64,000 bases of DNA, taken from Sphingomonas sp. EC-HK361 (GTDB taxonomy: Bacteria; Pseudomonadota; Alphaproteobacteria; Sphingomonadales; Sphingomonadaceae). The stretch is taken from the NCBI RefSeq assembly GCF_902498785.1, contig NZ_LR701493.1, positions 667,459 to 731,458 of the forward strand, in the 5' to 3' direction. The notes under the pieces were generated by a model. The model was not told where the DNA came from. It saw only the letters and a list, made by a program, of their open reading frames with translations, and did no database searches. A program made the position numbers and the translations under genes. Shown piece by piece: positions 36,709-50,993 of this stretch (positions are counted from its first letter, which is position 1; each line of letters opens with the position of its first letter).

Positions 36709-37797
36709 ATGCCGGGAAGTCCCAACAGATTTGACGCGATCGCCCGCAGGATCGTGATCGCGCTCGGCGGCGCGGCGCTGATGTCGCTTTCTCTGGCGGC
36801 GGATGCTGCGAACCCGATCGTACCCGGCTGGTATGCCGATCCCGAAATCCGCATCTTCGATCATCGCTACTGGATCTACCCCACGCTGTCGGACGTATCG
36901 GGCAGGCCTGCGCCGCAGCGTTTCACCCCGGCGCAGGCGGCGGCGCGCAAGGCGTATATGGTCCATCCGTCCTATGCGGCGCAGACCTATCTCGACGCGT
37001 TCTCGTCGCCTGATCTGGTCCATTGGACCAAGCATCCGCGAATCCTCGATATCGCCGATGTGAAGTGGGCGGCCTATGCCGTCTGGGCACCGTCGACGAT
37101 CGAGGTCGGCGGCAGATATTACCTTTTCTTCGGCGCCAACGACATCCAGAGCGATAACCAGACGGGCGGCATCGGCCTCGCCGTTTCGGACAAGCCCGGC
37201 GGCCCGTTCAGGGATGCGCTCGGCAAGCCGCTGATCGCGGCGTTCCACAATGGCGCGCAGCCGATCGATCCGTTCGTCTATCAGGATACCGACGGGCAGG
37301 TGTATCTCTATTATGGCGGCTGGGGTCACTGCAACGTCGTGCGCCTGTCGCGCGACCTGCGCCGCATCGAGCCGTTTGCGGACGGATCGACCTACAAGGA
37401 AATCACGCCGCCCGGCTACACCGAGGGTTCGTTCGTCATCAAGCGGCGCGGCGTCTATTACCTGATGTGGTCGGAAGGGGACTGGACCGGCCCTGAGTAT
37501 CGCGTCGCCTATGCCACGGGCCGGTCACCGCTCGGCCCGTTCACGCCGAAGGGCGTGATCCTCGCCCAGGATTTCCACATCGCGCGCGGTGCGGGGCATC
37601 ATTCCGTCGTGAACGTGCCGGGCACCGACGACTGGTATATCGTCTACCACCGCCGCCCGCTCGGCGACGACAAGGGCGATCACCGCCAGCTCGCGATCGA
37701 TCGCATGACCTTCATCGCCGATGGCAGCATCGCGCCGGTGACGATGACGAAGGCGGGCATCGCGCCGCGCCCGCTGCCGACCGGTAAGAAGGGATGA
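36709..37797 (+). CDS. Glycoside hydrolase family 43 protein, exported
   Basis: A 362-residue five-bladed beta-propeller glycosidase with a signal sequence (IVIALGGAALMSLSLAADAA). The catalytic aspartate is in GWYADPEIRIF with YWIYPT, the pKa-modulating aspartate in IDPFVYQDTDG, and the general acid glutamate in GYTEGSFVIKRRG. GH43 members are mostly arabinofuranosidases or xylosidases, some act on galactans, so its substrate in a mannosidase operon is open. It overlaps the GH92 start by 4 bp. Confidence 0.88.
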   Translation: MPGSPNRFDAIARRIVIALGGAALMSLSLAADAANPIVPGWYADPEIRIFDHRYWIYPTLSDVSGRPAPQRFTPAQAAARKAYMVHPSYAAQTYLDAFSSPDLVHWTKHPRILDIADVKWAAYAVWAPSTIEVGGRYYLFFGANDIQSDNQTGGIGLAVSDKPGGPFRDALGKPLIAAFHNGAQPIDPFVYQDTDGQVYLYYGGWGHCNVVRLSRDLRRIEPFADGSTYKEITPPGYTEGSFVIKRRGVYYLMWSEGDWTGPEYRVAYATGRSPLGPFTPKGVILAQDFHIARGAGHHSVVNVPGTDDWYIVYHRRPLGDDKGDHRQLAIDRMTFIADGSIAPVTMTKAGIAPRPLPTGKKG

Positions 37798-40142
37798 GCG
37801 TGACCAGAACCTTCGCCAATCTGCTTGGCGCGACCGCGCTCGTCACCGCGGCGCTGATCGGACCAGCGGCGCCCGCGCCAGCGCAAGCAGGCGCGAGCGT
37901 GCAGCCGGCATCGGTCGATCTCATCAATCCGCTGATGGGCACCGACAGCGATCACGAGCTGTCCTACGGCAACACCTATCCCGCGGTCGCGGTGCCGTGG
38001 GGGATGAACTTCTGGACGCCCGTCACCGGCAAGATGGGCAGCGGCTGGGGCTACACCTACGACGCGCAGAAGATCAACGGCATCAAGCAGACGCACCAGC
38101 CGAGCCCTTGGATGAACGACTACGCCGCCTTCGCGCTCTTCGCGGAGACGGGGCCGCTGAAGATCAAGGAGGAGGAGCGCGCGAGCTGGTTCAGCCACAA
38201 GGCCGAGGATGCGCGCGCCTATGGCTACAAGGTCTATCTCGCCGATTATGACGTTACGGCCGAGGTCACGCCGACCGCGCGCGCCGCGCAGTTCGCCTTC
38301 ACCTTCCCCAAGAGCGACGACGCGCACATCCTGATCGACGGCCAGGACGGCGGATCGATGGTCAGCATCGATGCGAAGAAGCGGCGCATCACCGGCTATG
38401 TCCGCAACAATCACGGCGGCGTGCCGGACAATTTTCACAACTACTTCGTCGCGCAGTTCGATCACGACTTCACCGTCAGCCGCACCTGGGACGACAATTA
38501 CCAGCTCTCCGCCGACACCAGCCGCGAGGGCGGGCATGTCGGCGCGGTCGTCAGCTTTAAGACGGCGGCGGGCGAGACCGTCCACGTCAAGGTCGCGTCT
38601 TCGTTCATCAGCCCCGAACAGGCGGAGCGCAATCTCGACAGCGAGATCGGCCGCGACAGCTTCGCGCAGACGCAGGCGAAAGCGAAGCAGGCGTGGGAGA
38701 CGGAGCTCTCGCGCGTGAAGGTGGAGGACCCGAGCCTCGACAACCGCCGCACCTTCTATTCGGCGCTCTACCGCATGCTGCAGTTCCCGCGCATGTTCTA
38801 CGAATATGACCGGGCCGGAAAGCCGGTTCACTACAGCCCCTATGACGGCAAGGTCCACGCCGGCTTCCTCTATACCGACAACGGGTTCTGGGACACGTGG
38901 CGCGCGGTCTTCCCCTTCTTCGCGCTGATGTATCCCGAGCGTGACAGCGAGATGATGCAGGGCCTCGTCAACACGGTGAAGGAGGGCGGCTGGCTGCCCG
39001 AATGGGCGAGCCCCGGCTACCGCGACGTGATGATCGGCTCCAATTCGGCGAACATCATCGCCGATGCCTATGCCAATGGCGTGCGCGGGTTCGATGTCGA
39101 GGCGCTCTACGCCGCGATGGTGAAGAACGCGACGACGAGCGCTGGGCGCCCGGTCGACAAGAAGGGCGAGGTTATCGGCGCGGTGGGCCGCGAGGGCGTC
39201 GAATATTACAACCGGCTCGGCTATGTGCCCTATGACGTCGGCATCAACGAGAATGCGGCGCGGACGCTGGAATATGCGACCGCCGATTTCTCGCTGTCAC
39301 GCCTCGCCACGCTGCTCGGCAAGGCCGGGGACGCGAAGCTCTACGGGACGCGCGCGCAGAATTTCCGCAAGCTCTACGACCCCGAAAGTGGCTGGATGCG
39401 TGGTCGCAACAAGGACGGATCGTGGGCGACGCCGTTCAATCCCTACAAATGGGGCGACGCCTTCACCGAAGGCAACGCGCTCCATTACAGCTGGTCGGCG
39501 ATGCAGGACACGCAAGGGCTCATCGACCTGATGGGCGGCGACCGCGCGTTCGTCGACCGGCTGGATTCGATCTTCACGCTGCCGCCGATCTTCGACGACA
39601 GCTATTACGGTTCGGTCATCCACGAGACGCGCGAGATGCAGATCGTGAACATGGGGCAATATGCGCACGGCAACCAGCCGATCCAGCACATGATCTACCT
39701 CTACGACTGGGCCGGCGCGCCGTGGAAGGCGCAGTATCACGTCCGCGACGTGATGAAGCGGCTCTACGCCGCGACGCCCGACGGCTATCCGGGCGACGAG
39801 GATAACGGCCAGACCTCGGCCTGGTATGTCTGGTCCGCGCTTGGCTTCTATCCGGTGACGCCGACGGTTGGCGAATATGCGATCGGCAGCCCGCTGTTCC
39901 GGCGCGTGACGCTGAAGCTGCCCACCGGCAAGAAGCTGGCGATCGAGGCTGAGAACAACAGCGCCGACAATGTCTACATCCAGTCGGTGCGGCTGAACGG
40001 CCGCGCGCATGACAAGACCTTTGTTACCCATGACGCGCTGAAGGAAGGCGGGACGCTGACCTTCGTGATGGGGCCACAGCCCAACAAGAGCTGGGGCAGT
40101 GCCAAGGCCGACGCACCCTTTTCGATGAGCGGCCGCAAATGA
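37794..40142 (+). CDS. Glycoside hydrolase family 92 protein (putative alpha-1,2-mannosidase)
   Basis: A 782-residue exported exo-alpha-mannosidase-type enzyme; GH92 enzymes are calcium-dependent and cut alpha-1,2 (some 1,3/1,4/1,6) mannosides. It has a signal peptide and then the family N-terminal sequence [24 protein letters not shown] (quoted in part), the FDNGFWDTW-like [16 protein letters not shown], and the calcium/catalytic region [22 protein letters not shown] near the C-terminus. Second gene of the GH43-GH92-GH125 operon. Confidence 0.92.
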
Positions 40143-41572
40143 CCCCCAATCGGCGTGACATGATGAAGGGCACCGGCGTGCTCGCGCTCGCGGCGGCGCT
40201 CCCCTCCGCGGCGCGCGCGGCGCCCTTCGTCAGCAAGCGGCCCGCGCCTGCGAACCGGCGCTTCGTCAGCCCCGCAGTGGAACGCGAAATCGCGCGGGTC
40301 AGCCGCAAGATCGCCGATCCCGAACTCGCGTGGATGTTCGAGAATTGCTACCCGAACACGCTCGACACCACGGTCCAGACGGGCACGCTCGACGGCAAGC
40401 CCGACACCTTCGTCCTGACCGGCGATATCGAGGCGATGTGGCTGCGCGACAGCTCCGCGCAGGTCCAGCCCTATATCCATCTGGTCGCCAGGGACGCGAA
40501 GCTCAAGCGCCTGTTCCAGGGTCTGATCCAGCGCCAGGCGCGTTGCATCCTGATCGACCCCTATGCCAACGCCTTCGACCGCGATCCCACCGCGCCGTCG
40601 AAGCTGGAGTGGTCGCAGACCGACAAGACCGACATGAAACCCGGCGTGGCCGAGCGGAAGTGGGAGATCGATTCGCTCTGCTACCCGATGCGGCTGTCTA
40701 ACGAATATTGGCGGCGCACCCGCGACAAGACGCCCTTCGACGATCGCTGGTCGCAGGCGATGAAGCTGGCGGTTGCGACGTTCCGGGTGCAGCAGCGCAA
40801 GGACGGCCGCGGTCCCTATCATTTCCAGCGGCCCGCGCTCGCCCCGACCGACAGCCTGATGCTCGGCGGCTATGGCTGGCCGACGAAGAAGATCGGGCTC
40901 ATCCATTCGATGTTTCGGCCCTCGGACGATGCCTGCCAATATCCCTTCCTGATCCCGTCGAACCTGTTCGCCGTCTCGGTGCTGCGCAAGATCGCGCAGG
41001 TCCACCGCGAGGCGCGCGGCGATGCCGCTGCGGCGACAGAGGCGGAGGCGCTTGCGAGCGAAGTCGAGGCGGCGCTGCGCGCGCATGCTCTGATTATTGA
41101 AGGTCAGGGCGGGCAGGTCTGGGCCTATGAGATCGACGGCTTCGGCAACACGCTGTTCATGGATGACGCGAACGTGCCGAGCCTTTCGGGGCTGCCGATC
41201 ATCGATGTCGTCGATCGGAACGATCCGCTGTTCCGCCGTACCGCGGCGCTCGCGTGGAGTGACCGCAACCCGTATTTCTTCAAGGGCAGCGCGGCGGAAG
41301 GAATCGGCGGGCCGCATATCGGGCTCGACATGATCTGGCCGATGTCGATCATCACCCGCGCGCTCAATGCCGATGACGACGCGACCATCCACCAGTGCCT
41401 CCAATGGCTGAAGGCGACGCATGGCGGCACCGGCTTCATGCACGAAAGCTTCCACAAGGACGATCCATCGAAATTCACGCGGCCGTGGTTCGCCTGGGCC
41501 AACGCGCTGTTCGGGCAGTTGATCGTCGAGATCGCCGACAAGCGCCCTGCTTTGCTGGCGGGGGCGATCTGA
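40139..41572 (+). CDS. Glycoside hydrolase family 125 protein (putative exo-alpha-1,6-mannosidase)
   Basis: A 477-residue (alpha/alpha)6-barrel inverting mannosidase. It has a twin-arginine signal ([18 protein letters not shown]), [17 protein letters not shown] with the catalytic aspartate region, [29 protein letters not shown] and [20 protein letters not shown]. It overlaps GH92 by 4 bp. Together with GH92 it would strip alpha-1,2 and alpha-1,6 mannose from yeast mannan or N-glycans. No transporter or regulator accompanies the operon. Confidence 0.92.
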
Positions 41573-41863: not shown

Positions 41864-44371
41864 TTATTCGTAACGCAGCGCCTTCACCGGGCTCGTCCGC
41901 GCGACGCGCCAGGCATGTGCCGCGATCGTGGCGACCGCGATCAGGAGCGCGAGCAGCCCAGCCTCGATGAAGGGCACCGGCGTCATCGCGATGCGCTGAT
42001 CGAAGCCGTTGAGCCAGTCGCGCATGATCCACCACGCGATCGGCCAGGCGACGATGTTCGCGACGAGAACCGGGCGGCTGAACTGCCACACCAGCAGCCG
42101 AACGATGTCGCGGGTCCGCGCGCCCAGCACCTTGCGGATGCCGATCTCCTTGGTGCGCCGTTCCGCGGTGAACGCGGCGAGGCCGAACAGCCCGAGGCAC
42201 CCGATCACCACCGCGAGCAAGGCGAACGCGCCGAAGAGCTGCGCGCGGGCGCTGTCGGGCTTGTAGAGATCGCGCACGATGTCATCGACGAAGCGCGCGC
42301 GGAACGGGATGTCGGGCACCATCCGCTTCCAGATGGCTTCGATCTGATCGCGCACCGTCTTGGGTTGTGCGCCCTGGAAGCGGACCATGATCTGGGTCAG
42401 GTTGCTGGTGTCGTAATTGTAGAACATCGGCTGGAGCGGATCGCGCACCGAGCGGTAGCGGACGTCGTTGACGATGCCGACGACGGTCGATGGCACGAGG
42501 CCGTACTGCGTCTCGACGGCGCTGGTCATGATCTGTTTGCCAAGCGCATCGGCGGGGCGTCTGAAGCCGAGGCGTCGCGTCGCTTCTTCGGTCAGGACGA
42601 TGTTGATCCCGCGCGCGACAAGGGCGCGCTGCGATTCCGGTGTCGCCGGAGAGGGGAGTGTCGCGTCGTCCATCGGCCGGCTGCCGGAAAGGTTGCGGCC
42701 GGCGACGATCTTCATGCCCATCGCGTCGAAAAAGCCCTCGTCGATCGCATAGACGCCAAGCGCGATCTGTTCGGCGTGACCGGGCAACTGCACGTCGGTC
42801 ATGGAATTGTGGCCGTTATTGACCGCGATGCTTGTCCGGCCGACCGCCGCGACGCCGGGAACGCGTTTGATCTGGTCGATCATCGCCTCGCTCACGCTCG
42901 CGACCTGGGGGCGCTCCAGCCCGTCGATCTGGATAAGGCCGTCACGCTTGTAGCCGGCATCGACGGAGCGGGCATAGACCGTCTGGGTGTAGACGATCGC
43001 GGTGCAGATGATGAGGCCGATCGATACCGCGAACTGGCCCACGACGAGGATGTTGCGCAGGCGCCCGGAGCCTTCCGCATCGGCAGACGACTTGTTCGCC
43101 TTCAGCACCCGCGCCGGTTCGAAACGCGAGAGGACGAGCGCGGGGTAGATGCCGCCCGCCAGCCCGACGAGCAGGGTTAGCAGGACGACCGGCAGCAACA
43201 CTCCGTCGAGCGCGAAATACCGAATGGCGATCTGTGCATCGAGGAAGGTGTTGACCCAGGGCAGCGCGAGCTCGACCAGCGCAAGCCCGACCAGCGTCGC
43301 GATCGCCGAAATCAGGATCGATTCCCCGATGAACTGGACGATCAATTGCTGCCGCGTTGCGCCGAGCACCTTGCGCAGCGCGACCTCGCGCGCCCGCTGA
43401 GTCGCGCGCGCCGTCGCCAGATTGGTGAAATTGACGCACGCCATGCCGAGGATCAGCAGCGCGATGACCGCGAAGGTGACGATCGCGCGCTTGTCGTTGC
43501 CCGGCCGCTGCGCGCCGTTCTGCGCCTCGCCCAGATGGACGTCCCGGATGTTGACCAGCTTCCAGTCCTGATCGTCGCCGGGGTTCGTGCGCACCCCGCC
43601 GCTGTTCTCGTCGGGGATGTTGCGCTTCTTCCACGCGGCAATGCCTTCATTGACTGTCGCGGCGTCCGCGCCCGAGCGCAGGCGGACCCAATAGCCGCCC
43701 GACTGCCAGCTCCAGCTCGTCAGCGCGCCCGGCGATTTCTGCCAATAGCTCGCCGGATCGAACCGCGCGACCATGCCGAAGCCGAGCGAGGAGTTTTTGG
43801 GCAGATCCTGATACACGCCGGTGACGCGGTAATCGGCCTTGTAGTCTTCGCTGGTCAGCGTGAGCGTCTGGCCGATCGGGTTGGCGGAGCCGAACAGCTG
43901 CGTCGCGGCCTTGCGGCTGAGCGCGAGCGCGTGCGGATCGTCGAGCGCGTGTTTCGGGTCGCCCTGAAGGAAGGGGACGTGGAGCACGTCGAACAGGTTG
44001 CCGTCGACGAAGAGCGCGCCCGGCACCGTGCTCGGCTGGCCGTCCTTGATGACGACGATCGACTGGCTGGTGAAATACACCGCCTTTTCGATCTGGGGGA
44101 AATCCTTGGTGAGCGCCGGGCCGACGACATAGCTCGTCTGCTGGAGCTTCATTTCCTCGCTGCCGCGCGCGTTCGCGCGGTAGTAATCCTGCACCTGGAA
44201 GACCTTGTCGGAGTCGGCGAGCCAGCCGTCATAGCTGAACTCATAGCGCACGAAGCCCAGGATCAGCAGGCACGCGGCGATGCCGAGCGCGAGGCCGATG
44301 ATGTTGATCGCGGCATAGGCCCGGTTCTTGGCCAGCGCGCGCAGGCCAACGGTCAGGTAATTGCGCCACAT
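41864..44371 (-). CDS. MacB/FtsX-like ABC transporter permease (tandem MacB_PCD and FtsX domains)
   Basis: An 835-residue inner-membrane protein with two MacB-type periplasmic domains and two FtsX regions. The first helix is NIIGLALGIAACLLILGFV, the periplasmic part spans ~45-290, a helix group follows with ATARATQRAREVALRKVLGATRQQ, then a second periplasmic part and a second helix group with AAFTAERRTKEIGIRKVLGARTRDI. It ends SPVKALRYE. Family members drive export by mechanotransmission rather than direct transport. SD AAAGGA supports the ATG at 44371. It is last in the adaptor-ATPase-permease operon. Confidence 0.92.
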   Translation of the reverse strand: MWRNYLTVGLRALAKNRAYAAINIIGLALGIAACLLILGFVRYEFSYDGWLADSDKVFQVQDYYRANARGSEEMKLQQTSYVVGPALTKDFPQIEKAVYFTSQSIVVIKDGQPSTVPGALFVDGNLFDVLHVPFLQGDPKHALDDPHALALSRKAATQLFGSANPIGQTLTLTSEDYKADYRVTGVYQDLPKNSSLGFGMVARFDPASYWQKSPGALTSWSWQSGGYWVRLRSGADAATVNEGIAAWKKRNIPDENSGGVRTNPGDDQDWKLVNIRDVHLGEAQNGAQRPGNDKRAIVTFAVIALLILGMACVNFTNLATARATQRAREVALRKVLGATRQQLIVQFIGESILISAIATLVGLALVELALPWVNTFLDAQIAIRYFALDGVLLPVVLLTLLVGLAGGIYPALVLSRFEPARVLKANKSSADAEGSGRLRNILVVGQFAVSIGLIICTAIVYTQTVYARSVDAGYKRDGLIQIDGLERPQVASVSEAMIDQIKRVPGVAAVGRTSIAVNNGHNSMTDVQLPGHAEQIALGVYAIDEGFFDAMGMKIVAGRNLSGSRPMDDATLPSPATPESQRALVARGINIVLTEEATRRLGFRRPADALGKQIMTSAVETQYGLVPSTVVGIVNDVRYRSVRDPLQPMFYNYDTSNLTQIMVRFQGAQPKTVRDQIEAIWKRMVPDIPFRARFVDDIVRDLYKPDSARAQLFGAFALLAVVIGCLGLFGLAAFTAERRTKEIGIRKVLGARTRDIVRLLVWQFSRPVLVANIVAWPIAWWIMRDWLNGFDQRIAMTPVPFIEAGLLALLIAVATIAAHAWRVARTSPVKALRYE

Positions 44372-44385
44372 CGCAAATGATCCTT

Positions 44386-45066
44386 TCACGCAGCCCGCCG
44401 GCGTTCCTGGAGGATCCGTCCGTCGAGCATGTTGACGACGCGGCTCGCATAATCGGCATGCGCCGGGGAATGGGTGACCATGACGATCGTCGAGCCTTCC
44501 GCGTTCAGTTGCTGGAGCATCCGCATCACCTCCTCGCCGTGATTGGTGTCGAGATTGCCGGTCGGCTCATCGGCGAGGATGAGTTTGGGCGCAGCGACGA
44601 GCGCGCGGGCGACCGCGACGCGCTGCTGCTGCCCGCCCGACAACTGGCTCGGCCGGTGGCGCGCGCGGTGAGCGATGCCGACGCGGTCCATCACGTCATC
44701 GGTGCGGCGCTTGCGCTCGGCGGCGGAGACATCGTGATAGAGCAAAGCGAGCTCGACATTCTCGCGCACGCTGAGCTCGTCGATCAGGTTGAAGCTCTGG
44801 AAGATGAAGCCGATATTCGCCTTGCGGAATTCGGCGAGCCTGCCTTCGGTCAGCCCCGCGACCTCGGTGCCGTTGAAGACGTAGGACCCGCTCGACGGGC
44901 TGTCGAGCATGCCCATGAGGTTGAGGAGCGTCGACTTGCCGCAGCCCGACGGCCCCATGATCGCGGCGAATTCACCGTCGGCGATATCGAGATCGATCGC
45001 GTCGAGCGCGGTCGTCTCGATCGTGTCGGTGCGGTAGACCCGCGAGAGCGCGCGCATCTGGAGCAT
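44386..45066 (-). CDS. MacB/LolD-type ABC transporter ATP-binding protein
   Basis: A 226-residue ATPase that powers the adjacent permease. Walker [14 protein letters not shown]-loop [14 protein letters not shown], signature [15 protein letters not shown], Walker [13 protein letters not shown] and the H-loop [11 protein letters not shown] are all intact. It is typical of the MacB/LolD/FtsE group. The start overlaps the adaptor stop (ATGA). Confidence 0.95.
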
Positions 45067-46412
45067 CAATCGTCCTTTCCATTGGCGGAAGCCGCCGTGA
45101 GATCGAGCCGGTCCTTGTCCTCGAAACCGGTATAGGGGGAGGTGATGACTCGCTCGCCGGCGTCCAGCCCGTCGAGCACCTCGATCGTGTCGGGGTTGCG
45201 CCGGCCAAGCCGGACCGGGCGCTTCACCGCGCTCTTGCCGTCGGGCGCGACGACGAACACCCACGCGCCGCCGGTCGTGTTGTAGAAGGCGCCGTTGGGG
45301 ATGAGCCTCGCGGGTGCGGGGTCACCCAGCGTCAGCTTCGCCTGCAGCGTCTGGCCGCGCTGGATGTTCTCCGGCTCGGCGCCGGTGAACTGCAGATCGA
45401 CCTGGAACTGGCCGTTCTGCACCTGCGGGTAGATTTTGGTGACCTTCGCGCCGTAGGTCTTTCCTGCCAGATCGACCCGCGCCTGCTGCCCCACCTGCAC
45501 GCGGCCGAGGTAGAATTCATCGACTCCCGCCTGCAGCTTGTTGCGCCCCGGCGAATCGATCTGGGCGATGCGCTCGCCGGGTTTCAGCGACTGGCCGACC
45601 TGAATGTCGAAGCCGGAGAGTTGCCCCGCGACCGGCGCCCTGAGGTTCAGCGCGTCGAGATTGGCGCGCGCGATGCCGAGCCCGGATTGCAGCGACTGCA
45701 TCGATGCGCGCTGCTGCGACAGCTGGGCTGATTGCAGCCGTTCGTCGGTGTTCTGGCTGCGGCGCAGGGTTTCGAGCTGGCGTTGCTGGAAGGTGAACTG
45801 GTCGGTCGTGTCCTTGAACTGGCGCCCGGCGACGAAGCCCTTGCGCGCGAGCGGCGCCTCCAGCTCATACTGGCGCTTGGCCTTGCTGGTCGCGAGGCCG
45901 GCGTCAAGAATCGCGCGCTCGTTGGCGAGGCGGGTCTGCGCGAGCGCGAGTTCCTGGCTGCGCATGTTGTTGATCTGCTGCTCGACCTCGGTCTGGCGGG
46001 CGAGCGTCGAAAGCTGGAGCTCGGCATTGGAGAGCACCGCGATGAGCTGGCCCTGCTGAAGCATCGCGCCGTCCTCGGCCACGACGCGCTCGACCCGGCC
46101 GCCCTCGATGGAATCGAGATAAACAGTGAGGAGCGGGGTGACGCGCGCGCGCAGCGGGATGAAGTCCTCGAACTGGCCGGTGCGGACGGGGGAAATGGTC
46201 AGCCGGTCACTCGCGACGCTCTGCGTGCCGGCACTCGGGGCGAACCACCAGCAAAGCATCGCAGCGATCAGTGCGGCAGCGGCGGCGAGGGCGATCTTCA
46301 GGCGCGGCGGCATCCGGCGCGTGGCGACGCTGCGGTCCATGCCGCTGCCGGTCACAGCGCCCGTCACCGGCCGGTCCCCGGCGACTTCGTCCTTCATGCG
46401 CACGACGCTCAT
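45066..46412 (-). CDS. Periplasmic adaptor (HlyD/MacA-like) of an ABC efflux system
   Basis: A 448-residue membrane-fusion protein. An N-terminal cytosolic tail precedes one helix (KIALAAAAALIAAMLCWWFA). A lipoyl-like half (GGRVERVVAEDGAMLQQGQLIAVLSNAE), a long coiled-coil hairpin (about 135-250, glutamine-rich LQSAQLSQQRASMQSLQSG, quoted in part) and beta-barrel parts (LRAPVAGQLSGFDIQVGQSLKPGE) follow. It would bridge the permease to an outer-membrane channel; no TolC-like gene is nearby. SD GGAAGGAG is strong. It is first in the operon and lies behind a perfect sigma-54 promoter. Confidence 0.92.
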   Translation of the reverse strand: MSVVRMKDEVAGDRPVTGAVTGSGMDRSVATRRMPPRLKIALAAAAALIAAMLCWWFAPSAGTQSVASDRLTISPVRTGQFEDFIPLRARVTPLLTVYLDSIEGGRVERVVAEDGAMLQQGQLIAVLSNAELQLSTLARQTEVEQQINNMRSQELALAQTRLANERAILDAGLATSKAKRQYELEAPLARKGFVAGRQFKDTTDQFTFQQRQLETLRRSQNTDERLQSAQLSQQRASMQSLQSGLGIARANLDALNLRAPVAGQLSGFDIQVGQSLKPGERIAQIDSPGRNKLQAGVDEFYLGRVQVGQQARVDLAGKTYGAKVTKIYPQVQNGQFQVDLQFTGAEPENIQRGQTLQAKLTLGDPAPARLIPNGAFYNTTGGAWVFVVAPDGKSAVKRPVRLGRRNPDTIEVLDGLDAGERVITSPYTGFEDKDRLDLTAASANGKDD

Positions 46413-46436
46413 CGCTGCTCCTTCCGCCAGGCGATC

Positions 46437-46452
46437 AGCAAGGCCCGTGCCA
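46437..46452 (-). promoter_or_regulatory. Sigma-54 promoter of the exporter operon (perfect consensus)
   Basis: On the minus strand the sequence is TGGCACGGGCCTTGCT, an exact match to TGGCACG-N4-TTGCW with GG and GC at -24/-12 spacing. It lies 24 bp ahead of the adaptor start, so the leader would be short. Exactly 66 bp further upstream lies a pair of dyads that match those in front of the peptide gene. Confidence 0.85.
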
Positions 46453-46518
46453 GCTCCCCTGCCAGCCCCCTGGCCAGCCGGTGCGCGCCTCAGCAGCATC
46501 CTGCGCACCCGCGCGACC

Positions 46519-46552
46519 GTCCGGTTTCGGACACCATTGTTCGAAACCGGAC
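46519..46552. promoter_or_regulatory. Enhancer (UAS) dyad pair A upstream of the exporter promoter
   Basis: GTCCGGTTTCGGAC (46519-46532, perfect 5-4-5 dyad) and GTTCGAAACCGGAC (46539-46552, one mismatch) have centres 20 bp apart, two helical turns. The pair also forms a larger inverted repeat, ACCGTCCGGTTTCG to CGAAACCGGACGGT. The likely ligand is the NtrC-type activator encoded at 46870. Confidence 0.75.
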
Positions 46553-46563
46553 GGTTCCGGCGA

Positions 46564-46707
46564 TCATGCGAGCGCTGCCTGAAGGAAGGCGGGGCCGGCG
46601 ATCGGCGGCGCCGAGGCAGCGACGACGAGGCCGCTGGTCAGCAGGATGGCGGCGAAGGCGCTGAGCGCCTGGAGCGACTTTGCGATAGACGGGACAGAAG
46701 GGGACAT
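46564..46707 (-). CDS. 47-residue hydrophobic (exported or membrane) peptide
   Basis: A short gene below common size cut-offs. The product starts MSPSVPSIAKSLQALSAF, has a single hydrophobic segment (AAILLTSGLVVAASA) and a C-terminal tail APPIAGPAFLQAALA. A GGAG ribosome site lies about 8 nt before the ATG, and a sigma-54 promoter lies 44 bp upstream. The helix with small residues and an ASA end could be a signal peptide or membrane anchor. It lies between the exporter operon and the regulator and runs in the exporter's direction. I know no family; it may be the exporter's cargo or a stress sensor, which is inference. Confidence 0.7.
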   Translation of the reverse strand: MSPSVPSIAKSLQALSAFAAILLTSGLVVAASAPPIAGPAFLQAALA

Positions 46708-46751
46708 CTGGCATCTCCGAAGCCGGCGGGATTGCCGACATGGACCTGCTC

Positions 46752-46767
46752 AGCATTCGCCGTGCCA
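46752..46767 (-). promoter_or_regulatory. Sigma-54 promoter of the 47-residue peptide gene
   Basis: On the minus strand TGGCACGGCGAATGCT matches TGGCACG-N4-TTGCW with one mismatch (ATGCT for TTGCT), with both invariant dinucleotides present. The ATG of the peptide gene is 44 bp downstream. Dyad pair B begins exactly 66 bp upstream, the same distance as at the exporter promoter. Confidence 0.8.
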
Positions 46768-46833
46768 AGTCGCGAAATGCACGAATTTGCGGGTAATTTG
46801 CGGTGCGGGTGGGCAGTGGCACGGAATTTGTTT

Positions 46834-46868
46834 GTCCGTTTCCGCACGCCGACTGTACGGGAACGGAC
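46834..46868. promoter_or_regulatory. Enhancer (UAS) dyad pair B between the peptide gene and its activator gene
   Basis: GTCCGTTTCCGCAC (46834-46847) and GTACGGGAACGGAC (46855-46868) are each one change from the perfect GTCCG-N4-CGGAC dyad and have centres 21 bp apart. The second ends one base before the activator's ATG, so binding could also repress or autoregulate the activator. Confidence 0.75.
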
Positions 46869-46869
46869 A

Positions 46870-48264
46870 ATGGGGAAGACGCCGGACTTCGATCTTTGCG
46901 TCGTGATCGACGACGACGAGGATATCCTGACCGCGGCGCGGCTGCTGCTGCGCGGGCAGTTCGCCGAGGTGCTGGTCGAGCGCGCGCCCGATCAGGCGAT
47001 CGCGGCGCTTGGCGGACGGCTGCCGGACGTGGTGCTGCTCGATGCCAATTTCGCGCGCGGCGCGACGGATGCGGCGGAGGGCTTGGCGTGGCTCGAGAAG
47101 CTGCTCGCGCTCGATCCCGAGATGGTCGTGGTGATGATCACGGCGCATGCCGGGGTGAATGTCGCGGTCGAGGCGATGAAGCGTGGCGCCACCGATTTCG
47201 TGTCCAAGCCGTGGAGCAACGAGCGGCTGCTGGCGACCGTGCGCACGGCAGCGGCGCTGCGCCGCTCCCGCCGCTCGGTCGCGACCGAGCGCGCGCGGGT
47301 CGCGGCGGTCGCCGAGCCGGCGGGCGGTGCCCATCCGCTGATCGGCGATGCGCCGGCGATGGCGCGCATCCACTCGCTCATCGCGCGCGCCGCGCCGACC
47401 CAGGCGAACGTGCTTATCCTGGGCGAGAACGGCACCGGCAAGGAGCTCGTCGCGCGCGCGCTCCACCACCAGTCGCTGCGTGCCGACCAGCCGATGGTGA
47501 CCGTCGATCTCGGCGCGATCGCGACCGAACTCATCGATTCCGAACTGTTCGGCCATGTGAAGGGGGCCTTCACCGACGCCCGCGCCGACCGCATCGGGCG
47601 CATCCAGGCGGCGGACGGCGGCACTTTGTTCCTCGACGAGATCGGCAACCTGCCGCTCCACCTCCAGCCCAAATTGCTGACCGTGCTCGAGCAGCGGCAG
47701 GTCACCCCGGTCGGCGCGAACCGGCCGGTGCCGGTCGATATCCGCGTGATCGCCGCGACCAACATGACGCCGGAGACGATGCGCGACGACCGGCAGTTCC
47801 GGCAGGATCTGCTGTTTCGGCTAAACACGGTCGAGATCGAACTGCCTTCTCTGCGGGACCGGCGCGAGGACGTCCCGGCGCTCGTCGATCATTTCCTCGA
47901 TCTCTACGCCCGCCGCTACAATCGCCCGGTGCCGCAGGTCAGTGCGGCGGCGCGCGCGGCGCTGGTCGCGCATGACTGGCCCGGCAATGTCCGCGCGCTG
48001 CGCCACGCGATCGAGCGCGCGGTGATCCTGGCCGGCGATGCGCCGCTGACGCCGGAGGACTTTCCGCTCACCGCGCGCGGCGCGCGGATCGCGCCCGAGG
48101 CGATCGTGGCGCCGCCCGTGCAGGACATGAACCTCGACCGGGTCGAGCGACGGCTGGTCGAGGCGGCGCTGAAAAAGCACGGCTACAACATTTCGTCCGC
48201 CGCGACCGAGCTCGGCCTCTCGCGCGCCGCGCTCTACCGGCGCATGGAAAAACATGGGCTTTGA
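46870..48264 (+). CDS. NtrC-type sigma-54-dependent response regulator
   Basis: A 464-residue bacterial enhancer-binding protein. A receiver domain (residues ~8-120) has the acidic pocket VVIDDDED, the phospho-acceptor in VVLLDANF, the Thr in VMITAHAG and lysine in FVSKPWS. The AAA+ domain (about 155-390) has Walker A LGENGTGKELVARAL, a GAFTDA loop in place of GAFTGA, and Walker B GGTLFLDEIGNL. A Fis-type helix-turn-helix is at the C-terminus (NISSAATELGLSRAALYRRME). It presumably binds the flanking dyads and activates the two sigma-54 promoters. It overlaps the kinase gene by 11 bp. Confidence 0.93.
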   Translation: MGKTPDFDLCVVIDDDEDILTAARLLLRGQFAEVLVERAPDQAIAALGGRLPDVVLLDANFARGATDAAEGLAWLEKLLALDPEMVVVMITAHAGVNVAVEAMKRGATDFVSKPWSNERLLATVRTAAALRRSRRSVATERARVAAVAEPAGGAHPLIGDAPAMARIHSLIARAAPTQANVLILGENGTGKELVARALHHQSLRADQPMVTVDLGAIATELIDSELFGHVKGAFTDARADRIGRIQAADGGTLFLDEIGNLPLHLQPKLLTVLEQRQVTPVGANRPVPVDIRVIAATNMTPETMRDDRQFRQDLLFRLNTVEIELPSLRDRREDVPALVDHFLDLYARRYNRPVPQVSAAARAALVAHDWPGNVRALRHAIERAVILAGDAPLTPEDFPLTARGARIAPEAIVAPPVQDMNLDRVERRLVEAALKKHGYNISSAATELGLSRAALYRRMEKHGL

Positions 48265-49567
48265 TCGCCGCTTCACGTTGGGGCTGGCGGCGTGGGTCGC
48301 GGCGCTGCTGGTTGTCGCTGCTGGCTTCCTGCTCGCGCTCGCGACACCGGGTCTCGCGGCGGCGCGCCTTGTCGCCGGGCTGCTGGTCGCGGGTGTCGTG
48401 TGGGGATTGTGGCGGCATGTGGCGCGGACCAACCAGATCGTCGCGCGGTTCGTGGAGGCGGTGCGTTTCGGCGACGTGACCGCGCGGTTCGATCGCGGCG
48501 GCGGGGCCGGGTTCGGCGATCTCGGCGCGACCCTCGACGCGGCGATGCGCCACTTGCATGCCGAGCGCGGGCAGGCGGAGCGCGACCTGCGCTATTACGA
48601 GGCGCTGATCGACGACGTGCCGGTCGCGGTCCTGACCGTCGACGCAGCGCGGGGCGTGACCCTTGCCAACAAGGTCGCGCGGCGGCTGTTCGTGCGGCAC
48701 GACGGCGTGCAGCCGGGCGATTTCGCAGTCTATGGGACCAGCTTCGCCCATCGTCTCGCGCAGGATGGCCCGGTCCGGCAAGAGCTGTTGATCCTGCAAT
48801 TCGCCGGCGGGCCGCAGCACGCGATCGTGCGCACGGCAGCGCTGGGGCGGCTGGGGCTGGATGTGCGCGTCGTGACGGTCGAGCCGATGCAGGGCACGCT
48901 CGATACCGTCGAGATGGCGACCCAGACCGATCTCGTGCGCGTGCTCACCCACGAAATCCTCAATTCGCTGACCCCGGTGACGTCGCTCGCCGGCACCGCG
49001 GTCGTGCTGCTGGGCGAAGACCCGCCCGACATCGCCGATGCGCGCGCCGCGGTGCTGACGCTGGCGCGCCGTGCCGAGGGGCTGCGCCATTTCATCGAAA
49101 GCTACCGCGCGGTCGCGCGCGCGCCCGAGGTCCGGCGCCGCGTCTTCGGCGCGCAGCCCTTTGCCGACGAACTCCGGCGGCTGTTCCTCGTCGAATGGCC
49201 GACGCTGCCGCTCACGGTCGATGTGCCGCCCGCCTTGAACCTCGACGCCGATCCCGACCTGATCGCGCAAGTGCTCATCAACCTGCTGCGCAATGCGGCC
49301 CAGGCGACGTATCTGCGCGAGGGGCCTGCCTGGGTGCGTCTCGCGATGACGGCCGAGGGCGACCGGGTCCGAATTGCGGTGGAGGACAGCGGCCCCGGCG
49401 TGCCCGAGGCGCTGCGGCGGGATATCTTCCTCCCCTTCTTCACCACGCGCGCGGAAGGCACCGGCGTCGGCCTCAACCTCGCGCGGCAGATCGTCATCGC
49501 GCATGGCGGCACGATCGAAGTCGGGCAGGGCGCGCAGGGCGGCGCGCTCTTCAGCCTCGTGATCTAG
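48254..49567 (+). CDS. Membrane sensor histidine kinase (NtrY/NtrB-like)
   Basis: A 437-residue kinase, partner of the upstream regulator. Two N-terminal helices (AAWVAALLVVAAGFLLALA and LVAGLLVAGVVWGL) are separated by only a few residues, so there is almost no periplasmic sensor domain; signals are probably sensed in or at the membrane. A HAMP-like and PAS segment (YYEALIDDVPVAVLTVDAA) precedes the phospho-acceptor region VRVLTHEILNSLTPVTSL and the ATPase boxes LLRNAAQAT, EDSGPGVPE and GTGVGLNLARQI. The short input domain fits a kinase that senses envelope damage. Confidence 0.93.
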   Translation: MGFDRRFTLGLAAWVAALLVVAAGFLLALATPGLAAARLVAGLLVAGVVWGLWRHVARTNQIVARFVEAVRFGDVTARFDRGGGAGFGDLGATLDAAMRHLHAERGQAERDLRYYEALIDDVPVAVLTVDAARGVTLANKVARRLFVRHDGVQPGDFAVYGTSFAHRLAQDGPVRQELLILQFAGGPQHAIVRTAALGRLGLDVRVVTVEPMQGTLDTVEMATQTDLVRVLTHEILNSLTPVTSLAGTAVVLLGEDPPDIADARAAVLTLARRAEGLRHFIESYRAVARAPEVRRRVFGAQPFADELRRLFLVEWPTLPLTVDVPPALNLDADPDLIAQVLINLLRNAAQATYLREGPAWVRLAMTAEGDRVRIAVEDSGPGVPEALRRDIFLPFFTTRAEGTGVGLNLARQIVIAHGGTIEVGQGAQGGALFSLVI

Positions 49568-50900: not shown

Positions 50901-50909
50901 GTTCGTCCA

Positions 50910-50993
50910 CCTCGTCGCCATTGACCTCGTCGCCATTGACCTCGTCGCCATTGACCTCGTCGCCATTGACCTTGTCGCCATTGACCTTGTCGG
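50910..50993. repeat. 15-bp tandem repeat between tspO and bchI
   Basis: Five full copies of CCTCGTCGCCATTGA (the fifth CCTTGTCGCCATTGA) and a partial sixth end at the PpsR-like site. The period is a multiple of three, so both flanking frames stay open: it reads LVAID repeats in the bchI frame and MATRS/VNGDE repeats on the other strand. Copy number is likely to vary between strains. Confidence 0.9.

Follow-up and report, generated by a model that had tools for sequence, protein, structure and literature searches.

What holds together a two-component system, an exporter operon and a gene for a very small hydrophobic peptide that share one short piece of DNA? The question is raised by a locus at positions 41,864 to 49,567 of a 64,000-nucleotide stretch of Sphingomonas sp. 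EC-HK361 (contig NZ_LR701493.1, positions 667,459 to 731,458), the whole of which we call the window. Here a minus-strand operon for a periplasmic adaptor, an ATP-binding cassette (ABC) ATPase and a permease, together with a 47-codon open reading frame (ORF), lies divergently opposite a plus-strand pair encoding an NtrC-type activator and a histidine kinase (Table 1). An earlier note, made from the letters alone, had seen in this arrangement a self-contained sigma-54 circuit that switches on both the peptide and its exporter. An ORF and domain check of the window finds the six genes or ORFs named in that note, and its promoters and dyads, all in place and side by side. With moderate confidence, we read the locus as a sigma-54-dependent envelope-stress module that would combine Zra-like wiring with a Bce-like kinase and exporter, while being a member of neither family. 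At the sequence level, support comes from gene content, conserved elements, the co-occurrence of operator and activator, spacing, and selection on the peptide.

Promoters and operators

The sigma-54 -24/-12 pattern TGGCACGNNNNTTGCW was searched across the whole 64 kb and compared with shuffles. Allowing at most one mismatch, it matches three times, every time within 46437-46832. At up to two mismatches there are seven matches against a shuffle mean of 9.2, which is not above chance, and the weight therefore falls on the clustering of the best three. Two of these are the promoters proposed earlier, P_exp for the exporter and P_pep for the peptide; the third, P_RR, faces the activator gene and had been missed. 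The claim that the non-regulatory units carry sigma-54 promoters of their own stands, but a -24/-12 element precedes the activator operon as well.

A search of the window with the dyad pattern TGTNCGNNNNCGNACA at up to one mismatch gives seven matches, four of which form two tandem pairs at this locus, A and B, and include the sole perfect match. Shuffled windows contain 2.6 matches on average and 3 of 100 shuffles get to seven, so that the pairing and conservation of the dyads bear weight and single dyads do not.

Conservation among relatives

A genome_contigs scan returned 221 loci, and all five genes stand in divergent order in 40 of the best 80 that were kept (L001-L040, with the activator and kinase of L040 matching in part only); L044 has them in a different order. 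L001-L038 and L040 are labelled Sphingomonas, Sphingomonadaceae or Sphingomonadales. L039 comes from a Candidatus Zixiibacteriota metagenome-assembled genome; its divergent locus is complete, the dyad is perfect and the activator is 49% identical, which may reflect an old transfer, common descent or a binning error. A draw of 201 genomes from the genus yielded 53 with the activator at E 1e-120. Our nearer set joins loci from both sources and comprises 69, with exact duplicates removed and with the window and L039 included; one of them, L129, is a cut contig.

Within this nearer set, an exporter-facing sigma-54 element precedes the small-ORF position in 68 loci, counting the single element of L039, and a separate P_exp is present in 38 of the 69. 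P_RR is found in 67, with a -12 box reading TTGAT in 58 of them. A good pair A occurs in 59 loci, in every one of which its offset to P_RR is 0, and pair B occurs in 57. A best B-type pair score of at least 20 of 24 was reached by none of 300 random 400-nt pieces, where the maximum was 17.

The operator also accompanies the activator across whole genomes. Pair B, at up to two mismatches, is present in 22 of 26 activator-positive genomes and in 0 of 20 activator-negative ones. For pair A the counts are 21 of 26, G153 having it off-locus only, and again 0 of 20. In an order-wide set, at up to one mismatch, a pair is found in 22 of 40 genomes with the activator (off-locus only in G551) and in 1 of 14 without it. 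In these comparisons, a genome counts as being without the activator if it has no match at E 1e-120 or E 1e-105. A reversed control pattern gave 0 in all three genome comparisons. Of 27 genomes that carry 27 of the 40 first-scan loci, 23 likewise have pair B, at a single place in each save G006, which has two.

Spacing provides a further line of evidence. Measured from where pair A ends, the -24 element of P_pep lies at distances that cluster near 43, 55, 66, 76, 88 and 99 bp; between pair B and P_exp the distances cluster near 42, 54 and 65 bp. The 47 A distances that do not exceed 100 bp fit best to a period of 11.1 bp (R 0.85), and the B distances to one of 11.6 bp (R 0.84). Counted over related and thus not independent loci, this spacing is as expected if activator and promoter make contact on one face of the helix. 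Taken with the conserved elements and their co-occurrence, it argues for a sigma-54 circuit that has an activator, dyads and targets of its own, much as had been proposed.

Targets outside the locus

That the circuit is self-contained, as the earlier note had it, holds for many genomes, but in others the same dyad pair stands before unlinked genes. We examined 25 such off-locus pairs (L134-L138, L212-L231) at up to two mismatches, or one in the order-wide set, leaving out fifteen places with three mismatches. At an element threshold of 12.5 (L134 and L137 at 13.0), an outward sigma-54 element lies 67-207 bp away from 17 of the 25, against 349 of 4000 random anchors (40-260 bp). Some of these sites are orthologous or resemble one another (L135/L138, L215/L219, L212/L213, L134/L137, and the permeases of L223, L225 and L226). 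Five pairs precede genes for permeases with MacB_PCD and FtsX domains (L222-L226), and six precede small secreted two-cysteine proteins of 80-95 aa (L135, L138, L215, L216, L219, L220), four of which were scanned without any reaching a Pfam or NCBIfam cutoff. In L136 a 35-codon hydrophobic peptide follows the element, while L214, L218, L227 and L231 have the element with no recognised target of the permease, secreted-protein or peptide kinds. Because off-locus pairs precede permeases, small secreted proteins and a peptide, the circuit is not always closed. At L228, in genome G522, a dyad pair and sigma-54 element stand ahead of pcm, which is followed by an outer-membrane efflux gene of TolC type.

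These targets bear on whether the exporter is instead a general lipid, lipoprotein or drug pump whose two-component system answers one specific chemical. The MacB/FtsX family is broad enough for this, and LolD matches the ATPase at 217 bits, below its cutoff of 308. Yet the other targets that can be recognised encode proteins that are exported or sit in the membrane, and the kinase appears by eye to have no extracytoplasmic ligand domain. Across 14 kinase N-termini, also judged by eye, we see two predicted transmembrane segments joined by a loop of about 5 residues, in keeping with the earlier description of a kinase nearly devoid of a periplasmic part. We regard a general pump as unlikely.

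The core without the peptide

At E 1e-105 the activator is found in 66 of 246 genomes drawn from the order; in a draw of 299 from the phylum, 7 have it. Twenty loci from the order matches (L192-L211) form our distant set, and in all twenty the activator-kinase pair faces adaptor, ATPase and permease, several with a second permease match. All twenty also have a dyad scoring at least 8 of 10, compared with 180 of 2000 shuffles. Judged as in the nearer set, a hydrophobic small ORF is present in three, as a 33-codon version in L193 and as UrcA-family genes in L192 and L194. Among the loci from the phylum draw, L161 and L162 keep the divergent layout with a dyad variant, and L163 and L164 have another gene order, with no permease match in L164.

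The core is the two-component system and the exporter. As most distant loci hold this core without the peptide, the latter is probably a gain within the Sphingomonas lineage, one that the kinase can do without. The earlier idea that the peptide might itself be what the kinase senses fails as a general rule, given that the same two-component system and exporter stand without it in 17 of the 20 distant loci and in L026, L145 and L147.

The same loci speak to a reading in which the peptide is cargo of the exporter, a secreted signal or bacteriocin-like product, with the two-component system acting as a quorum or immunity switch. The common regulator, the adjacency of the genes and the strong differences of the peptide between clades are what cargo would lead one to expect, and the top-scoring families of ATPase and adaptor are those of darobactin export, though under cutoff. 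Exporter and regulation nevertheless persist in those 17 distant loci, and in seven loci the slot holds UrcA-family proteins with signal-like leaders of their own. No maturation enzyme was noticed by eye among the ORFs at 39-52 kb, of which the flanking ones were not scanned. Moreover, the peptides of L001 and L012 are near-identical, yet the permease paralogue standing first differs. We therefore hold it to be quite improbable that the peptide is cargo.

Several observations weigh against the envelope-stress module as we have drawn it. P_exp was not seen in 31 of the 69 nearer loci; a pair B there stands ahead of no exporter promoter and so must differ in role. A good A pair is missing in 10 of the 69 and a good B pair in 12. 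P_RR mostly has TTGAT instead of a canonical TTGC -12 box and may be a weak promoter or no promoter at all; at the threshold used, it is found in only 2 of the 20 distant loci (L192, L194). The activator-negative genome G522, which is 1.9 Mb and possibly incomplete, has pair and promoter with the activator absent even at E 1e-60. Eight of the 25 off-locus pairs are without a sigma-54 element (L134, L137, L212, L213, L217, L221, L229, L230). The spacing clusters have centres chosen by eye, 24 of 5000 random sets fit as well, and the 11 A distances longer than 100 bp have no evident 11-bp phasing. Finally, the loci of every count are related and the counts are not independent.

The small ORF

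An ORF with a hydrophobic N-terminus, 31-108 codons long, follows the element in 65 of the 69 nearer loci. The exceptions are L026, which also lacks P_pep, L145 and L147, which have no such ORF, and L039, which is doubtful. The earlier note would have been refuted had peptide gene and dyads not been conserved together among relatives; with the ORF in 65 of the 69 loci, pair A in 59 and pair B in 57, they are co-conserved.

What fills this position varies. One kind is short and resembles a free signal peptide (the window, L114-L116, L118-L120, L122 and L126, with L036 and L152 similar). A second combines a transmembrane segment with a strand-like tail, its 3' end often overlapping dyad B. A third, at seven loci (L033, L035, L038, L151, L153, L192 and L194, the last two from the distant set), scores above the NCBIfam cutoff for the UrcA family. 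The window peptide has three 42-aa database homologues (P0004-P0006), 83-98% identical over 87% of the query, and conservation of the peptide sequence from clade to clade is very low. It belongs to no Pfam, NCBIfam or PHROGs family; a PHROGs search with it and one small secreted protein gave no match, nor did the window peptide match UrcA TIGR04433. We considered whether it is a truncated UrcA leader and dropped the idea, as a hidden Markov model (HMM) of six UrcA leaders gives it 2.6 bits and rank 68 with 277 decoy leaders. The same HMM finds L037 at 34 bits, and for that locus a truncated UrcA leader is a possibility.

Is the ORF translated for its product, or is it a short leader without one, the conserved features being the promoter and dyad B? 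The ORF criteria are loose, being satisfied by 124 of 1320 shuffled downstream sequences and 7 of 66 opposite strands, and the ORF overlaps dyad B in 43 of 56 loci, where part of the conservation is at the DNA level. The failure of the UrcA-leader HMM to recognise the window peptide also leans towards a leader. On the other side, most ORFs of the window's group stop before dyad B, 65 of 69 loci is far over both controls, and the database homologues share a similar C-terminus. In addition, over 41 gapless pairs of related loci with dyad B excluded, the uncorrected ratio of non-synonymous to synonymous differences (pN/pS) comes to 0.45 in frame, against 1.27 and 1.54 for the two other frames. 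Pooled by cluster, again outside dyad B, all 13 clusters fall within 0.13-0.81, the UrcA set being highest, and a few single pairs are at or just above 1. Because pN/pS is low in frame and not out of frame, the small ORF looks coding; the same control lowered what was already a slim chance of a productless leader, which we now consider most improbable.

If coding, the peptide could be a membrane feedback modulator of the kinase or exporter, serving as brake or adaptor of the circuit. Small membrane proteins and ZraP/CpxP-type proteins act so in other stress systems, and the length of the membrane segment, the co-regulation, the purifying selection (pN/pS of 0.13 for the 32-codon versions L116/L118) and a promoter apart from that of the exporter in 38 of 69 loci would all suit such a role. 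The very low conservation across clades does not, nor does the absence of the peptide from L026, L145 and L147, where the rest stays. We view feedback modulation as possible rather than probable, and it is partly compatible with an envelope-stress module.

Proposed mechanism

We propose a model of the envelope-stress module in which the kinase, having no sensory domain outside the membrane, would read the state of the membrane or the neighbouring exporter and phosphorylate the NtrC-type activator. The activator would then bind the tandem dyads, with pair A acting on P_pep and pair B on P_exp, as conservation, spacing and genome-wide co-occurrence suggest. Since pair A covers the region just downstream of the P_RR -12 box, its occupation may damp the activator operon while turning the peptide on. 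To judge from their families, adaptor, ATPase and permease would move a putative envelope-damaging or lipid/peptide cargo outward together with a putative TolC-type partner, for which the locus has no gene. Produced alongside, the small peptide would be a lineage-specific accessory, exported or membrane-anchored, that probably protects or tunes the membrane complex and is not an obligatory signal.

Sensing coupled to the exporter is attractive given the shape of the kinase and the exporter as constant partner. It is tempting to go further and speculate that the locus is a sigma-54-based, Gram-negative counterpart of the Bce modules, in which the MacAB-like exporter would be the sensor for the domainless kinase. 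A fast-evolving slot under the same activator would be filled in each lineage by different small exported products, whether bare signal-peptide-like microproteins, transmembrane-plus-strand peptides or UrcA proteins. We offer this larger proposal tentatively and with more doubt than confidence. Were the exporter the sensor, the locus would be a Gram-negative equivalent of Bce logic, and with the variable slot included, UrcA-type proteins would be effectors of an exporter-linked envelope response. The predicted regulatory code of operator, promoters and spacing is specific enough for a direct test by reporter fusion. One regulator would also join two orphan groups, the MacB/FtsX permeases and tiny exported proteins that include UrcA-family members.

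Relation to known systems

In wiring, the locus resembles the NtrC-type ZraPSR system of E. coli, which also has an NtrC-family regulator, sigma-54 and, beside them under the same regulator, a gene for a small exported protein. ZraPSR is linked to envelope integrity in the available passages of PMC10848872. However, ZraP is a zinc-responsive periplasmic chaperone, whereas the window peptide is without a family and has little beyond its membrane segment; at this locus the constant partner is an ABC exporter, and the kinase has no periplasmic domain. The scores fall short of the ZraR and ZraS equivalogs, at 330 of 760 and 82 of 479 bits.

The Gram-positive Bce modules (BceAB-BceS) pair a kinase that has a short extracellular part with a transporter of the FtsX type, and their response regulator is of the OmpR type. 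A kinase that looks domainless by eye, beside an FtsX-type ABC transporter, is what we see here as well. The present locus differs in having an NtrC-type regulator with sigma-54, a MacA-type adaptor and a duplicated MacB-type permease. That the Bce sensor kinase works with the ABC transporter is described in the accessible part of PMC10314905.

MacAB-TolC and DarBCD share with this exporter an adaptor, an ATPase and a MacB/FtsX permease from the same superfamilies, but ATPase and permease are separate genes here, unlike in MacB. The NCBIfam cutoffs for DarB (67 of 700 bits), DarC (181 of 450) and DarD (270 of 375, the top NCBIfam family of the ATPase) are not reached, nor are those of the XrtA/PEP-CTERM pair PrsK-PrsR (PrsR 359 of 502.6, PrsK 72 of 300 bits).

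A 2025 study predicts sigma-54 control of COG0577 and COG1136, that is of MacB/FtsX-type permeases and ATPases, for COG0577 in gamma-Proteobacteria, Opitutia and Bacteroidia and for COG1136 in Opitutia, and its authors term the link to FtsX-like permeases first evidence (PMC12316311, available text). Those are other classes, and in that text there is no activator, dyad or peptide, and the words Sphingomonas and sphingomonad are absent. Among the open-licence papers searched in full text it is the nearest work, and those searches brought up no description of this locus; PMC3162934 contains none of six transporter terms looked for. The urcA product of Caulobacter is periplasmic, of unknown function and regulated through UzcRS, according to the accessible sections of PMC8963506. 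The family (TIGR04433) thus touches our locus through the seven UrcA genes in the peptide slot, although the window peptide is not recognisably UrcA.

Genes of the locus and their surroundings

The permease matches Pfam MacB_PCD at 7e-36 and FtsX at 4e-28, and scores 357 bits against NCBIfam ADOP, under the cutoff of 622. The adaptor scores 133 bits against RND_mfp, above the cutoff of 94.9, and matches MacA structures at E ~1e-8. In the activator the receiver, the Sigma54_activat AAA+ domain and the Fis-type helix-turn-helix (HTH) all exceed Pfam cutoffs. Its loop reads GAFTDA in place of GAFTGA, as in 80 of 90 sequences with the window included; GAFTGA is found in 6.

Table 1. Genes, predicted promoters and dyads of the locus, in window coordinates
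Feature	Position	Strand	Details
FtsX/MacB-type permease, 835 aa, ADOP-like duplicated permease	41864..44371	-	two MacB_PCD and two FtsX stretches
ABC ATPase, 226 aa	44386..45066	-	Pfam ABC_tran 6.7e-35
Periplasmic adaptor, MacA/HlyD type, 448 aa	45066..46412	-	HlyD_3 1.7e-12
Exporter promoter P_exp (predicted), TGGCACGGGCCTTGCT	46437..46452	-	perfect -24/-12, 0 mismatches; ~25 bp before adaptor ATG
Dyad B1, CGTCCGGTTTCGGACA on + strand	46518..46533	.	TGTNCGNNNNCGNACA match
Dyad B2	46538..46553	.	TGTNCGNNNNCGNACA match; 20 bp from B1; pair B upstream of P_exp
47-codon hydrophobic peptide ORF	46564..46707	-	ORF list; like a free-standing signal peptide or transmembrane segment
Peptide promoter P_pep (predicted), TGGCACGGCGAATGCT	46752..46767	-	1 mismatch
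Third -24/-12 element P_RR, TGGCACGGAATTTGTT	46817..46832	+	1 mismatch; faces activator gene
Dyad A2	46833..46848	.	TGTNCGNNNNCGNACA match; directly abuts P_RR
Dyad A1	46854..46869	.	perfect TGTNCGNNNNCGNACA match; 21 bp from A2; end adjoins activator ATG (46870)
NtrC-type response regulator (activator), 464 aa	46870..48264	+	Response_reg, Sigma54_activat, HTH_8
Histidine kinase, 437 aa	48254..49567	+	Pfam HATPase_c

Many relatives (L001, L012, L124, L125 and others) have two tandem paralogous permeases, with the order varying or one lost; in the window a single permease was found. Between L001 and L012 the permeases are 47% identical, and activator, adaptor and ATPase 98-99%. Permease swapping between these close relatives was considered as a sign of diversifying selection and dropped as such, because tandem paralogues that are reordered or lose one copy account for the difference.

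Beyond the kinase gene, a tandem repeat with a 15-bp unit in 5.6 copies lies at 50909-50992, beside ORFs that we take from their translations to be TspO-like and chelatase-like. Just past the exporter operon end two glycosidase-like ORFs (37794-41572), presumably of GH92 and GH125.

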